Assembly: GCA_029942185.1 (NCBI GenBank)
Contig: JAOZTK010000006.1
Span: forward strand, 1 to 35,087
From: Flavobacteriaceae bacterium
Lineage (GTDB): Bacteria > Bacteroidota > Bacteroidia > Flavobacteriales > Flavobacteriaceae
Direction: 5' to 3'
Length of the DNA: 35,087 bases
The notes below the pieces were generated by a model. That model was not told the DNA's origin, did no database searches, and was given only the letters and a program-made list of their open reading frames with translations. Positions 13,951-20,275 of this stretch are shown here, one piece after another (position 1 is the stretch's first letter; the number at the start of each line of letters is the position of its first letter). Made by a program: the position numbers and the translations under genes.

Positions 13951-16350
13951 ATGAAAAGATCCATTAAAAAAGTAGCTATCATCGGTTCCGGAATAATGGG
14001 ATCAGGAATAGCTTGTCATTTTGCAAACATCGGTGTGCAAGTTCGATTATTTGACATTGTGCCGCGTGAACTAAATGACAAAGAAAAAGCCAAAGGCCTG
14101 ACTTTAGAAAATAAAGTTGTGCGTAACAGATTGGTAAATGAAAGTTTACAAAATACTTTGAAATCTAAACCATCACCAATTTATCACAAAGATTTTGCAA
14201 AACGAATCAGCACAGGAAATCTTGAAGATGATTTGCATCTTATAGCCGATTGTGACTGGGTGATAGAGGTTGTGGTGGAACGTTTGGATATTAAACAAAA
14301 AGTATTTGAACAAATAGAAAAATTCCGTAAACCGGGTTCATTGATTACATCTAATACTTCAGGTATTCCAATTCAATACATGAATAAAGGACGTAGTGAA
14401 GATTTTAGAAAGCATTTTGCAGTTACACATTTTTTTAATCCTCCACGTTACCTAAAACTATTTGAAGTAGTTCCGGGTCCCGATTGCGAACAAGAAGTAA
14501 CAGATTTCCTAATGGGCTTCGGAGAGAAGTTTTTGGGAAAAACGTCTGTTTTGGCCAAAGATACACCGGCGTTTATTGGAAATCGTGTTGGTATATTCGG
14601 AATTATGAGTTTATTCCATGTGGTAAAAGAGATGGGATTAACGGTTGGGGAAGTTGATAAATTGACAGGACCTGTTATTGGTCGTCCAAAATCAGCAACT
14701 TTTAGAACCGTCGATTTAGTAGGTCTTGATACACTTGTGCATACAGCAAATGGTGTGGCAGACAATGCTAAAAATGATGAAATGCACGATAGTTTTGCTA
14801 TTCCGGATTTTATCCAAAAAATGATGGATAAAAAGTGGTTGGGCAGTAAGACCCAACAAGGTTTTTATAAAAAGGAAGTAGTGGATGGTAAAAAATCTAT
14901 ACTGGCTCTTGATTTAGAAACTTTGGAATATAAGCCGCAAGAAAGAGTTAATTTTCCAACTTTAGGAATGACGAAAACTATCGATAATGTTATTGATAGA
15001 TTTAAAGTTCTCGTTAAAGGTAAAGATAAGGCAGGAACGTTTTATCGCAAAACATTTGCTCCAATGTTTCAGTATGTGTCAAATAGAATCCCTGAAATTT
15101 CGGATGAACTTTACAGGATTGATGATGCGATGAAAGCAGGATTTGGATGGGAACATGGCCCTTTCCAAATTTGGGATGCTATAGGTGTTGAAAAAGGGGT
15201 TAAAATGATGGAAGCAGAAGGCTATAAACCCAATAAATGGGTAACTGAAATGCTTCTAAGTGGCCGAAAATCTTTTTACGATGTAAAAGATGGAGCAAAA
15301 TATTATTACGATATTCCAAAAAAAGAATTGGTAAAAATACCAGGACAAGACTCCTTTATTATTTTAGATACGATTCGAGAGGCCAAAACAATTTGGAGTA
15401 ATGCAGACGCGAGTATCCTACATCTGGGAGATGGTGTTTTAAATGTAGAATTCCGTTCAAAAATGAATACCTTAGGAGGAGGTGTTTTACAAGCTATCAA
15501 TAAGGGAATTGATTTGGCAGAAACAAAATATGAAGCAGTCATTTTGGGAAATCAAGCTGCAAATTTCTCAGTAGGAGCTAATTTAGCAATGGCTTTTATG
15601 ATGGCTATTGAGCAGGATTATGACGAATTGGTGATGGCAGTTAAATTGTTCCAAGATACGGTAATGCGTCTACGATACTCTTCTATACCGACAATTGTTG
15701 CGCCCCACGGTTTAACTTTAGGAGGTGCTTGTGAAATGAGTATGCATGCCGATAAAGTTGTAGCTGCAGCTGAAACATACATAGGATTGGTGGAGTTTGG
15801 AGTAGGTATTATCCCTGCAGGAGGTGGAACCAAAGAAGTTGCACGGCGTGTTTCTGAATTGTGGATCAAAGACGATGTAAAGTTAAATCGTTTACGTGAA
15901 ACATTTATAAATGTAGCGATGGCTAAAGTGGCTACCTCTGCTTATGAGGCTTTTGACTTAGGTTATTTCCAAGAAGGTAAAGATATTGTTGTGGTCAATA
16001 AAGAACGTCAGATTGCTACGGCTAAACGACATGCTATTCAAATGCTGGAAGATGGTTATACACAACCTGCACCGAAAGAAGTATATGTCCTAGGTCGTCA
16101 AGCCTTAGGAATGTTCTTGGTAGGAACAGATAGTTTAAAAGCAGGGCGTTTCGCATCTGAACACGACCAATTGGTAGCCAATAAATTGGGATATATCATG
16201 GCAGGTGGTGATTTGTCTGAACCACAGTTTGTGTCGGAACAGTATTTATTGGATTTAGAACGTGAAGCCATTATGAGTTTGTTTACTGAAAGGAAAACCT
16301 TAGAGCGTATTGAACATACATTAAAAACGGGAAAACCTTTAAGAAACTAA
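13951..16350 (+). CDS. 3-hydroxyacyl-CoA dehydrogenase / enoyl-CoA hydratase fusion (FadB-like)
   Basis: Rossmann VAIIGSGIMGSGIACHFANIGVQVRLFD; THFFNPPRYLKLFEVV; FIGNRVGIFG; C-terminal crotonase part APHGLTLGGACEMSMHADKVVAAAETYIGLVEFGVGIIPAGGGT. Confidence 0.95.
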   Translation: MKRSIKKVAIIGSGIMGSGIACHFANIGVQVRLFDIVPRELNDKEKAKGLTLENKVVRNRLVNESLQNTLKSKPSPIYHKDFAKRISTGNLEDDLHLIADCDWVIEVVVERLDIKQKVFEQIEKFRKPGSLITSNTSGIPIQYMNKGRSEDFRKHFAVTHFFNPPRYLKLFEVVPGPDCEQEVTDFLMGFGEKFLGKTSVLAKDTPAFIGNRVGIFGIMSLFHVVKEMGLTVGEVDKLTGPVIGRPKSATFRTVDLVGLDTLVHTANGVADNAKNDEMHDSFAIPDFIQKMMDKKWLGSKTQQGFYKKEVVDGKKSILALDLETLEYKPQERVNFPTLGMTKTIDNVIDRFKVLVKGKDKAGTFYRKTFAPMFQYVSNRIPEISDELYRIDDAMKAGFGWEHGPFQIWDAIGVEKGVKMMEAEGYKPNKWVTEMLLSGRKSFYDVKDGAKYYYDIPKKELVKIPGQDSFIILDTIREAKTIWSNADASILHLGDGVLNVEFRSKMNTLGGGVLQAINKGIDLAETKYEAVILGNQAANFSVGANLAMAFMMAIEQDYDELVMAVKLFQDTVMRLRYSSIPTIVAPHGLTLGGACEMSMHADKVVAAAETYIGLVEFGVGIIPAGGGTKEVARRVSELWIKDDVKLNRLRETFINVAMAKVATSAYEAFDLGYFQEGKDIVVVNKERQIATAKRHAIQMLEDGYTQPAPKEVYVLGRQALGMFLVGTDSLKAGRFASEHDQLVANKLGYIMAGGDLSEPQFVSEQYLLDLEREAIMSLFTERKTLERIEHTLKTGKPLRN

Positions 16351-16352
16351 GA

Positions 16353-16841
16353 AAGATGTTAGACTTTAAGATTATAGACTCTAGACCGATTTGTTTAACA
16401 GTTTAAAATTTATTGTCTAGTATTTAAATATATAAAAGATGGTAAAGCATAATTTTAGAAAACTGAAAATTTGGAAAAAAAGTTTAGAGTTAGTTTTTGA
16501 AACATATAGAATCACTAAAACTTTTTCAACTGATGAAAGGTATGGTTTAACGAGTCAACTAATTAGGTGTTCAGTTTCTATTCCATCGAATATAGCAGAA
16601 GGAACCAGTAAAAATTCTGATAAACATTTTAAAACTTTTCTTGAAACGAGTTTAGGATCAGCTTTTGAATGGGAAACTCAGAATATAATTGCCAGAGGGC
16701 TAGGTTATATTACAAATGAAAAATTTAACGAATTATAAAAAACCATAGACGAAATACAGAAAATGATAGTTGGATTTATGGATAAATTATCAATATAAGA
16801 AGTATTTGTCTATTGTCTAACATCTAACAATCTAATATCTT
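16353..16841. mobile_element. Four-helix-bundle cassette 1 bounded by 34-nt imperfect inverted repeats (IVS-like)
   Basis: Left arm 16353-16386 AAGATGTTAGACTTTAAGATTATAGACTCTAGAC and right arm 16808-16841 GTCTATTGTCTAACATCTAACAATCTAATATCTT pair at 26/34 positions without gaps; together they fill the fadB-fadA gap. Confidence 0.65.
16439..16798 (+). pseudogene. Four-helix-bundle protein (23S rRNA intervening-sequence protein family) with in-frame TAA at 16736-16738
   Basis: LKIWKKSLELVFETYRITKTFSTDERYGLTSQLIRCSVSIPSNIAEGTSKNSDKHFKTFLETSLGSAFEWETQ is diagnostic; after the TAA the same frame continues KTIDEIQKMIVGFMDKLSI*, the expected C-terminal helix. Confidence 0.8.
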
Positions 16842-16845
16842 AATT

Positions 16846-18030
16846 ATGAAAACAGCATATATAGTAAAAGGATACAGAACAGCAGTAGGAAAAGCACCAA
16901 GGGGTGTATTCCGATTTAAAAGACCCGATGAAATGGCGGCTGAAACCATTGAATACTTGTTGAAGAAAATACCGCAATTAGATAAAAAACGTATTGACGA
17001 TGTCATTGTCGGAAATGCCATGCCCGAAGCAGAGCAGGGTCTTAATATCGGAAGATTAGTCTCTCTTATGGGCTTAAAAATTGATGATGTAGCGGGTATG
17101 ACTGTCAACCGTTATTGTGCATCAGGGCTCGAAACTATCAGTATAGCAATAGCAAAGATTCAATCTGGAATGGCCGATTGTATCATTGCCGGTGGAGTCG
17201 AAAGCATGAGTTATATTCCGATGGGTGGCTACCGTGCCGTTCCGGATTATAAAACAACCAAAGAAGGTCATGAAGATTATTATTGGGGAATGGGTTTGAC
17301 TGCAGAAGCAGTAGCACAACAGTTTAAAGTGTCGCGAGAAGATCAAGATGAATTTGCATTTAAATCACATCAAAAAGCCTTAAAAGCTATAGACAATGGT
17401 ACGTTTAAAGATGATATTGCACCTATGAATATTGAAGAAATTTATATGGATGCAAATGGGAAGAAACAAACCAAATCATACGTAGTAGATACAGATGAAG
17501 GGCCACGAAGAGGGACTTCAATTGAAGCTTTGGCTAAATTAAGACCTGTTTTTGCGGCAGGTGGAAGTGTCACAGCCGGTAATTCTTCTCAAATGAGTGA
17601 TGGCGCTTCATTTTTTATGATTATGAGTGAGGAAATGATAAAAGAACTCAATATTGAGCCTATTGCTAGATTAGTATCTTATGCTGCAGTGGGTGTTGAC
17701 CCTCGCATTATGGGAATGGGACCCGTTGCAGCCGTTCCAAAAGCACTAAAACGAGCCGGCATGCAAATAAAAGACATGGAACTTTTAGAACTAAATGAGG
17801 CTTTTGCATCCCAATCAGTAGCCGTAATGAGAGAGTTGGATTTAAATCCGGATATCGTCAATGTAAATGGTGGAGCCATTGCATTAGGACATCCATTGGG
17901 CTGTACAGGTGCTAAACTATCGGTGCAATTATTAAACGAAATGCGCCGACGTAAAAATAAATTTGGTATGGTAACCATGTGTGTGGGTGCCGGGCAAGGA
18001 GCAGCAGGTGTCTTTGAGTTGCTCAAGTAG
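16846..18030 (+). CDS. Acetyl-CoA C-acyltransferase (thiolase, FadA-like)
   Basis: VNRYCASGLETISIA, GGVESMSYIPMGG, LNEAFASQSVAV, NGGAIALGHPLGCTGAK, CVGAGQGAAGVFE. Confidence 0.95.
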   Translation: MKTAYIVKGYRTAVGKAPRGVFRFKRPDEMAAETIEYLLKKIPQLDKKRIDDVIVGNAMPEAEQGLNIGRLVSLMGLKIDDVAGMTVNRYCASGLETISIAIAKIQSGMADCIIAGGVESMSYIPMGGYRAVPDYKTTKEGHEDYYWGMGLTAEAVAQQFKVSREDQDEFAFKSHQKALKAIDNGTFKDDIAPMNIEEIYMDANGKKQTKSYVVDTDEGPRRGTSIEALAKLRPVFAAGGSVTAGNSSQMSDGASFFMIMSEEMIKELNIEPIARLVSYAAVGVDPRIMGMGPVAAVPKALKRAGMQIKDMELLELNEAFASQSVAVMRELDLNPDIVNVNGGAIALGHPLGCTGAKLSVQLLNEMRRRKNKFGMVTMCVGAGQGAAGVFELLK

Positions 18031-18038
18031 TGTAAATC

Positions 18039-18452
18039 AAGAGTAAAGAAAAGAGAAAGAAGATAAAAGACGTAAATGGGTAAAGAACTTAGACATAATT
18101 ATACGAATTTAAAAATTTGGAAGTTAGGATTAGAATTTCCAAAACATAAAAGATATAACTTGAGTTCCCAAATGAGTAGGTGTTCAATTTCAATTCCTAG
18201 TAATATTTCAGAAGGATCGGCAAGAACAGATAAATCATTTTCTCATTTTCTTGACATTTCATTAGGTTTATCTTTTGAATTAGGGACACAATTATTAATA
18301 GCAAACCATAAGAAATATATTAACAAAACAGTTTTAACAAATCTTGAAGAAAAATTAGCGGAGTTTCAAAGAATGACTATGAGTTTTCAAAATGGTTTAA
18401 GTTGAATAGAAAATGATTCAATTTTTTTTCTTTTCTCTCTTTTCTTTTTTCT
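18039..18452. mobile_element. Four-helix-bundle cassette 2 bounded by purine/pyrimidine imperfect inverted repeats (IVS-like)
   Basis: Left arm 18039-18070 AAGAGTAAAGAAAAGAGAAAGAAGATAAAAGA, right arm 18422-18452 TTTTTTTTCTTTTCTCTCTTTTCTTTTTTCT, including an 11-bp perfect core (18045-18055 / 18437-18447). Low-complexity arms reduce certainty. Confidence 0.5.
18076..18405 (+). CDS. Four-helix-bundle protein with an apparent 11-aa deletion in helix 1
   Basis: NLKIWKLGLE|FPKHKRYNLSSQMSRCSISIPSNISEGSARTDKSFSHFLDISLGLSFELGTQLLIANHKKYI; cassette 1 has 16 residues between the LE and RY landmarks, this copy has 5. Confidence 0.8.
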   Translation: MGKELRHNYTNLKIWKLGLEFPKHKRYNLSSQMSRCSISIPSNISEGSARTDKSFSHFLDISLGLSFELGTQLLIANHKKYINKTVLTNLEEKLAEFQRMTMSFQNGLS

Positions 18453-18469
18453 AACAAAAAATTACAATT

Positions 18470-20275
18470 ATGAGTACAGACAAATCAGCAATTAAAGGAG
18501 GAGAATTCCTAATCAAAGAAGTAAAAAGTGAAGATATTTTTATCACTGAAGAATTTACGGAAGAACAGCAAATGATGCGTGATGCCGTCAAAGAATTTGG
18601 AGAACGCGAAATTATTCCCTATCGCGAAAGATTCGAGAAAAAAGATTATGCATTAACCGAAGAAACCATGCATAAATTAGGTGATATGGGGTTTTTGGGA
18701 ATTTCTATTCCGGATCAATATGGAGGTATGGGTATGGGATTTGTTTCAACGATGTTAGTGACAGATTTTATATCAGGAACTTCCGGATCTATTGCTACAG
18801 CTTATGGAGCGCATACAGGTATTGGAACCATGCCTATTTATTTGTATGGAACTGAAGAACAAAAGCAAAAATATTTGCCGGATTTAACAGCAGGAAATAA
18901 ATTTGGTGCCTATTGTTTAACGGAACCTGAGGCCGGAAGTGATGCCAATTCAGGTAAAACAACAGCAACACTGACTGACGACGGGAAACATTATAATATC
19001 AGTGGTCAAAAAATATGGATTTCTAACGCTGCTTTTGCCAAAATACAAATTGTGTTTGCTCGAATTGAAGATGATAAAAATATTACAGCTTTTATTATCG
19101 AATATGATAAGGATAACCCAAACGGAATTACTTTTGGAGAAGAAGAACACAAGCTAGGAATACGAGCTTCCTCTACACGCCAAGTTTTTTACTCGGACAC
19201 AAAAATACCGGTCGAAAATATGCTTTCAGAAAGAGGTAAAGGATTTAAAATTGCATTAAATTCATTGAATGTCGGACGAATTAAACTAGCAGCGGCTTGT
19301 AATGATTCACAGAGACGTATTATTAATGAATCTGTAAAATATGCCAATGAACGTATTCAATTTAAAACACCTATTGCTCAATTTGGTGCTATTAAAAAGA
19401 AATTAGCCGATATGAGTACAAAGGCTTTTGTTAGTGATGCCGGTGTTTATCGTGCAGCGATGGATATTGAAAATAAAATTAATGAGTTGATTGCCGGCGG
19501 TAAAAGTATGAACAAAGCCAAATTGAAAGCTTATGAAGAGTTTGCAATTGAAGCGGCGATTCTTAAAGTTTATGTGTCAGAAGCAATCCAAGAAGTAAGT
19601 GATGAAGGAATACAGATTTTTGGAGGAATGGGCTTTTCAGAAGACACCCCTATGGAATCTGCCTGGCGTGATGCGAGAATTACAAGAATTTACGAAGGAA
19701 CGAACGAAATAAATCGTTTGTTATCCGTTTCTATGCTGCTTAAAAAAGCGATGAAAGGGGAATTAGATATATTAGGACCTGCTACAGCTGTGGGTAAAAG
19801 CCTGATGGCGATACCTTCCTTTGATGTTCCTGATTACAGTGTATTATTCTCCGAAGAAAAAGAGATGATCGATAAACTAAAAAAAGCTTTTTTAATGGTA
19901 GCCGGAAGTGCTGTCCAAAAATATGCCATGGATTTACAAAATCACCAACAGCTAATATTGTCAGTTGCTGAATTAATGATTGAGATTTATATGGCAGAAT
20001 CAGCGATATTGAAAGCAGAAAAATTAGCAAAAAGGGATTCTGAAGAAAAAGTTTCCGGACAAATAGCGATGGCAAAACTTAATTTGTTTAATGCGGTAGA
20101 AAGCATTACTAGAAATGCAAAAGAAGCGATATTGTATTTTTCGGAAGGTGATGAACAACGCATGATATTAATGGGTTTAAAACGATTTACAAAATATACA
20201 AATCAACCGAATCCTCTTGCATTACGTAAACAAATTGCAAAAGAATTGACTGAGGCGAATGAGTATTGTTTTTAA
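18470..20275 (+). CDS. Acyl-CoA dehydrogenase, long form (FadE-like)
   Basis: 601 aa; GAYCLTEPEAGSDANSGKT, ISGQKIWISNAAFA, RIQFKTPIAQFGAIKKKLADMS, QIFGGMGFSEDTPMESAWRDARITRIYEGTNEINR plus C-terminal extension. Confidence 0.95.
   Translation: MSTDKSAIKGGEFLIKEVKSEDIFITEEFTEEQQMMRDAVKEFGEREIIPYRERFEKKDYALTEETMHKLGDMGFLGISIPDQYGGMGMGFVSTMLVTDFISGTSGSIATAYGAHTGIGTMPIYLYGTEEQKQKYLPDLTAGNKFGAYCLTEPEAGSDANSGKTTATLTDDGKHYNISGQKIWISNAAFAKIQIVFARIEDDKNITAFIIEYDKDNPNGITFGEEEHKLGIRASSTRQVFYSDTKIPVENMLSERGKGFKIALNSLNVGRIKLAAACNDSQRRIINESVKYANERIQFKTPIAQFGAIKKKLADMSTKAFVSDAGVYRAAMDIENKINELIAGGKSMNKAKLKAYEEFAIEAAILKVYVSEAIQEVSDEGIQIFGGMGFSEDTPMESAWRDARITRIYEGTNEINRLLSVSMLLKKAMKGELDILGPATAVGKSLMAIPSFDVPDYSVLFSEEKEMIDKLKKAFLMVAGSAVQKYAMDLQNHQQLILSVAELMIEIYMAESAILKAEKLAKRDSEEKVSGQIAMAKLNLFNAVESITRNAKEAILYFSEGDEQRMILMGLKRFTKYTNQPNPLALRKQIAKELTEANEYCF

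Follow-up and report, generated by a model that had tools for sequence, protein, structure and literature searches.

The window analyzed here (the whole stretch of 35,087 nt) comes from the 2.2 Mb, 204-contig assembly of a Flavobacteriaceae bacterium and carries a forward-strand operon in the order fadB, cassette 1, fadA, cassette 2, fadE. The upstream host gene encodes a fadB-like 3-hydroxyacyl-CoA dehydrogenase/enoyl-CoA hydratase (13951-16350; Pfam 3HCDH_N/3HCDH/ECH_1, NCBIfam FadB). Cassette 1 begins with a left arm in which TTAGACNT-type units are imperfectly repeated in tandem (16353-16386), starting 2 nt past the fadB stop codon (16348-16350). It continues with a PF05635 gene (23S rRNA-IVP, four helix bundle) whose translation has 99 aa (16439-16738) and closes with a right arm (16808-16841) that pairs with the left one and stops 4 nt short of the fadA start codon (ATG at 16846). 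The fadA-like thiolase gene (16846-18030; Pfam Thiolase_N/C) is thus flanked by cassettes on both sides. Cassette 2 occupies the whole fadA-fadE gap (18031-18469), with a left arm of purine-rich AAGAGAAA-type units (18040-18068), a PF05635 gene of 109 aa (18076-18405; hmmscan E-value 2.4e-24) and a pyrimidine-rich right arm (18424-18452). Its arms pair with each other and are unrelated in sequence to those of cassette 1. The downstream host gene encodes a fadE-like acyl-CoA dehydrogenase (18470-20275; Pfam, NCBIfam). These coordinates agree with the original prediction that the arms of cassette 1 hug the fadB stop and the fadA ATG. An Rfam scan of the window matched no family. A T9SS sorting domain assigns the genome to the Bacteroidota.

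The prediction that the arms enclose a gene of the 23S rRNA intervening-sequence protein family was confirmed by profile searches. The two window genes reach PF05635 bit scores of 115.1 and 86.1 (curated cut-off 33.8) and TIGR02436 bit scores of 104.6 and 82.2 (curated cut-off 24), and the E-values for the cassette 1 ORF are 2.2e-33 and 3e-30, respectively. The nearest solved structure to the cassette 1 protein is PDB 2gsc (XCC0516; E-value 3e-20), and the cassette 2 protein has a weak additional match to bAvd (PF22296; E-value 2.5e-4). The PF05635 family is homologous to Avd, the pentameric four-helix bundle of diversity-generating retroelements (PMC10053308). The putative role of the PF05635 protein is most likely to bind the arms or the nucleic acid of the element.

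The cassette in the fadB-fadA gap is a decaying member of the family. Codon 100 of its ORF is an in-frame stop, TAA (16736-16738), whereas the family frame continues to a stop ending at 16798, so that the nonsense codon removes about 20 residues. The remaining frame is intact and the protein is 85% identical in amino acids to L002, a dispersed copy of the same genome, with a dN/dS of ~0.07; the stop is therefore either recent or tolerated. Cassette 2 is about 90% identical to its orthologue in the relative G001. Their alignment places a 33-nt in-frame deletion in the window copy, and the G001 orthologue has an 8-nt frameshift duplication. Across same-locus and dispersed pairs most dN/dS values fall within 0.06-0.3, the most diverged pairs being affected by saturation. 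Judged from these ratios, the PF05635 protein of the cassettes is under strong purifying selection and is therefore translated and matters, although individual copies decay.

We assessed arm pairing in the two window cassettes. The predicted ungapped pairing of 26 of the 34 arm positions in cassette 1 was reproduced, and none of 400 dinucleotide shuffles reached 26. The duplex energy of these arms, -27.1 kcal/mol against a shuffle mean of -13.5 kcal/mol, was matched by 0 of 1000 dinucleotide shuffles. Their alignment score of 18 was likewise never equaled in 1000 shuffles, and the score of 19 for the cassette 2 arms was equaled once in 1000. In the transcript fold that the prediction had called for, the 521-nt stretch as a whole did slightly better than shuffled sequence (z -1.66), which is weak evidence. 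An exact-seed repeat search of the window did not report the cassette 1 arms, since their exact matches are too short to serve as seeds. Because 14 of 2000 random window pairs with the same spacing had an equal or better duplex energy, cassette 1 alone is weak evidence, and the strength of the pairing case comes from a family-wide flank test and not from a single copy.

PF05635 genes are dispersed in these genomes. The window's genome has 8 matches, and 40 out of 58 relatives are positive, with up to 16 matches per genome; none of the 14 control genomes searched had one. For the flank test we sampled 110 cassette copies from 100 regions of relatives and scored each by aligning its left flank (100 nt) locally to the reverse complement of its right flank. 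Pairs of a copy's own flanks scored 17.1 on average, compared to 9.4 for cross-copy pairs, with a maximum of 10.5 in 2000 permutations (n=110). For 39 copies the own right flank ranked best of all 110. As controls we used 671 ordinary genes from the window's genome and one relative (about 835 kb), whose mean flank score was 9.2. Scores of at least 17 were obtained for 57 of the 110 cassettes and for 6 of the 671 control genes (Fisher 1.7e-48). The top-scoring control is a transposase-like gene with strong terminal inverted repeats (L201:4239-5226, on contig C15 of G000). When the flanks were restricted to true gaps, 80 out of 110 copies had a rank p<0.05 and 30 did not. At least two of the sub-threshold copies checked have the right arm within the ORF (L058 and L045) and were rescored at 27.5 and 26. 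In both, the ORF runs on through the heptamer repeats of that arm, which encode an extended C-terminus. The result was replicated phylum-wide with one copy from each of 30 genomes (15.2 against 8.8; permutation maximum 11.1) and on 26 cyanobacterial copies (20.2 against 9.0; permutation maximum 14.3). The original prediction had proposed such a comparison for intergenic copies; the flanks are complementary beyond shuffles and cross-pairs, and genes lacking complementary flanks, which it had named as contrary evidence, are not the rule.

The cassettes are also strongly biased in orientation. They are co-directional with both neighbors in 99 out of 108 cases, against 348 of the 671 control genes (Fisher 8e-17), and antisense to both in none of the 108, against 63 of the 671. 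This orientation bias suggests that the cassettes may be relevant at the level of the transcript. The arms begin at the upstream stop (median -2 nt) and end at the downstream start (median +4 nt; n=29), a geometry that would arise equally well if the element had inserted where the genes were separated by just a few nt. Some gaps are occupied recurrently, namely fadB-fadA, fadA-fadE, sufC-sufD, atpA-atpG and ffh-folD (names read from the sequences), and the gene pairs around occupied gaps vary widely in function. A thiolase with 40-43% identity to FadA also adjoins PF05635 cassettes in five genomes from another family of the phylum (L365, L366, L367, L370, L371); at least four of the five loci have a cassette on either side of it.

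Comparison with relatives showed turnover in the two fad gaps. Among 40 genomes, 15 carry cassettes in these gaps, 19 in all. The search for empty sites suggested by the original prediction found them: unoccupied fad gaps measure 3-63 nt, mostly a few to tens of nt, or contain hairpins with no gene. For instance, the same gap is 438 nt long in G034 and 6 nt in G035. At least three protein lineages occur in the fadA-fadE gap and at least four in fadB-fadA, and cassette 1 groups with the dispersed copy L002. G001, whose FadA is 95% identical, has another protein type in cassette 1's gap while retaining the outer right arm. In seven genomes with a cassette in one fad gap, the second fad gap holds a hairpin without a gene, and in 5 of the 7 its arm motif matches that of the genome's own cassette. 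Locus L040 of G001 holds a PF05635 gene between two near-duplicate TACGC/GCGTA heptad hairpins, and the orthologous gap of G000 (L188:12306-12488) contains only a TACGC/GCGTA heptad hairpin. The fad gaps of G004 and G025 (L141, L156) contain a different, GC-rich nested palindromic repeat of the AGCCCCTCCCGACCTCCCCAAAGGGGAGG type. The more alike two proteins are, the more similar are their arms (Mantel r 0.18, p<=0.001). Of 22 pairs of dispersed copies with at least 70% identity, 12 have arms in common, and copies at 50-70% protein identity have similar arms only at the same locus; from this pattern, the arms can travel with the gene yet are renewed or site-bound in the long term. No target-site duplication was seen in occupied/empty pairs, which are too diverged to exclude one.

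The arms are imperfect tandem arrays of a locus-specific unit (GGTCAGT, TTAATGG, AATTCAG, the TTAGACNT type and others) of 7 nt, sometimes 8 nt, and no conserved repeat is common to all copies. Their autocorrelation exceeds that of control gaps at lag 7 (0.44 vs 0.32) and at lag 14 (0.40 vs 0.31). Lag 7 dominates in 48 of 71 left arms and 47 of 71 right arms, followed by lag 8, and the two arms of a copy have the same lag in 61 of the 71. Near-perfect inverted arrays flank cyanobacterial PF05635 genes (for instance GTCCATA, TGACAGT and GTCATTA; L281, L372-L401). TAACTGA arrays of cyanobacteria and Beggiatoa, considered as general arms of PF05635 cassettes, were rejected, with a PF05635 gene at only 1 of 80 loci; the converse relation, heptamer arms beside cyanobacterial PF05635 genes, held. 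Heptamer arrays at large are not tied to PF05635 (1/80) and seldom form inverted pairs (a partner in inverted orientation lies within 700 nt for 12 of 102), so the inversion is a trait of the cassettes. Arm mismatches include 102 G-U and 118 A-C, with no wobble excess, so RNA-level selection on pairing is unsupported. Nor were the two arms seen to evolve in concert: at orthologous loci, homologous arms of different species are more alike than the two arms of one copy.

The closest known counterpart is the intervening sequence (IVS) of rRNA, which has complementary ends, a sense ORF and established RNase III excision within the stem (PMC4990558). Like the IVSs of Coxiella, Leptospira and Brucella, the cassettes have an S23p/PF05635 ORF in sense orientation to the host transcript, within complementary, stem-forming ends. 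Further likenesses are the stem itself (~28 bp in Coxiella), decaying ORFs, heptamers in the 5' arm and short versions lacking the gene (PMC4990558). The tandem GACAGAT heptamers in the 5' region of the Coxiella IVS are the only described counterpart of the arms that we found (PMC4990558). The IVSs differ in being located in rRNA helices 9/25/45, whereas the cassettes lie in mRNA gene gaps, number up to 16 per genome and have locus-specific arm motifs; excision is known for IVSs only. Cassette 1 lies between fadB and fadA and not in an rRNA gene, and ten 23S copies from three carrier genomes (2756-2828 nt) have no insert, so the cassette is IVS-like but is no rRNA IVS. In the assembly from which the window comes, no LSU match was obtained.

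Other known systems share single features with the cassettes. The protein resembles Avd (bAvd, PF22296), a homologous pentameric four-helix bundle (PMC10053308), but neither a reverse transcriptase nor a template repeat was found among the genes examined, including the window proteins. REPIN-RAYT systems also have a hairpin of two inverted repeats, and their gene-less copies are miniature non-autonomous mobile DNA (PMC3116915). The cassettes themselves contain no transposase and share no conserved repeat, their hairpin encloses a gene and their sense orientation in operons is strict. By the features compared, insertion sequences and other DNA transposons do not fit, as the cassettes contain no transposase and have copy-specific arms. 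Heptamer arrays (STRR/SSR) are known, without explanation, in cyanobacteria, Beggiatoaceae, Bacteroidetes and Xanthomonas, including GGGAATC inverted pairs reported in Xanthomonas (PMC4679880, PMC4692102). They share the 7-nt units, and the same kind of array occurs in cyanobacterial cassettes, but the majority of TAACTGA arrays lack both an inverted partner and a PF05635 gene nearby.

We therefore consider the inserts in the fad operon to be members of a dispersed, likely mobile, IVS-like hairpin cassette embedded in transcripts. For this reading as a whole, with co-transcription and roles for stem and protein, we estimate a probability of about 0.6. A small PF05635 gene makes up the loop, and the long, imperfect stem around it consists of two arms in which a 7-8-nt unit is arrayed in inverted orientation. 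The element inserts in sense orientation where tightly packed operons leave a few bases from one stop codon to the next start codon. The architecture, sense bias, dispersal, presence or absence among relatives and purifying selection on the protein are all shown by the comparisons above. The cassette would be co-transcribed with its host genes and the arms would pair in the mRNA. By analogy with rRNA IVSs, the stem may render the insert harmless, either by compaction or by RNase III excision. The pentameric protein may act on the hairpin or on its DNA or RNA and so serve maintenance or spread, and the gene-less hairpins would be derivatives or targets of the element. The original prediction that an IVS-like architecture had been placed between ORFs of polycistronic mRNAs is supported: the arrangement is systematic, orientation-biased, and present or absent among relatives.

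Several other explanations were weighed. Chance complementarity of AT-rich, low-complexity flanks is extremely improbable; the arms are indeed AT-rich and the random window pairs noted above (14/2000) match the duplex energy of cassette 1, but the cross-copy and control-gene comparisons in three independent sets refute it for the family. The arms could also be pre-existing or local heptamer microsatellite hairpins that serve as landing pads for PF05635 genes, so that arms and genes have separate histories. At equal protein divergence, arms are indeed alike within a locus and not between loci, gene-less heptad hairpins occur at orthologous gaps, and most cyanobacterial TAACTGA arrays lack a PF05635 gene. 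We nevertheless regard this as possible, if somewhat unlikely, given that close dispersed copies share arms, that inverted pairing is uncommon among heptamer arrays and usual beside PF05635 genes, and that neighboring gene-less hairpins copy the motif of the cassette.

A third explanation places the element at the DNA level, with the arms as terminal inverted repeats or cruciform/hairpin ends in a REPIN/RAYT-like single-stranded DNA transposition, and RNA pairing as incidental. The dispersed copies, the gene-less hairpins that carry the arm motif of a nearby cassette and the symmetric mismatch spectrum without wobble bias fit such an element. We consider it unlikely because the cassettes contain no transposase, the arms are copy-specific instead of a conserved terminal sequence, and a DNA transposon that enters short neutral gaps would not be expected to keep strictly to the sense orientation in operons. 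Finally, the stem could benefit the host as an operon device that couples stop and start codons (translation coupling, re-initiation) or sets fadB/fadA/fadE expression by processing, as the original prediction had suggested. The position of the arm ends at stop and start codons, the repeated occupation of identical gaps (fad, suf, atp, ffh-folD) and the purifying selection on the protein would agree with this idea. It is quite improbable, however, as most relatives have no insert in the fad gaps, one gap hosts various protein lineages and arm motifs, cassettes decay (the nonsense codon of cassette 1, the frameshift in G001), and the occupied gene pairs have diverse functions. With no G-U excess, many relatives lacking the insert and a nonsense-truncated cassette 1, the suggested processing or translation-coupling device is unsupported, and a translation-coupling role for the host has no support beyond geometry.

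The transcript-embedded cassette also invites a broader and more speculative proposal, which we consider doubtful. The cassettes may represent a class of transposase-less mobile elements in bacterial mRNA operons, with arms of ~5 heptamers (about 35 nt) that the pentamer would read, or newly make, site by site, one unit per subunit. The rRNA IVSs, the gene-less heptad hairpins and some of the cyanobacterial and Xanthomonas arrays would then belong to the same system.

We found no description of intergenic PF05635 genes with complementary arms in the open-licence literature, which is not proof of absence. To our knowledge, rRNA IVSs have been known for more than 30 years, with no origin or function assigned to either the element or its protein. 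PF05635 genes with a stem, present by the hundred in mRNA operons, provide natural replicates for studying mobility, RNA processing and protein binding outside the ribosome. The family is also tied to heptamer repeats that so far had no explanation, with a link that is partial in cyanobacteria, and "four helix bundle protein" turns from a filler annotation into the cargo of a recognizable element.
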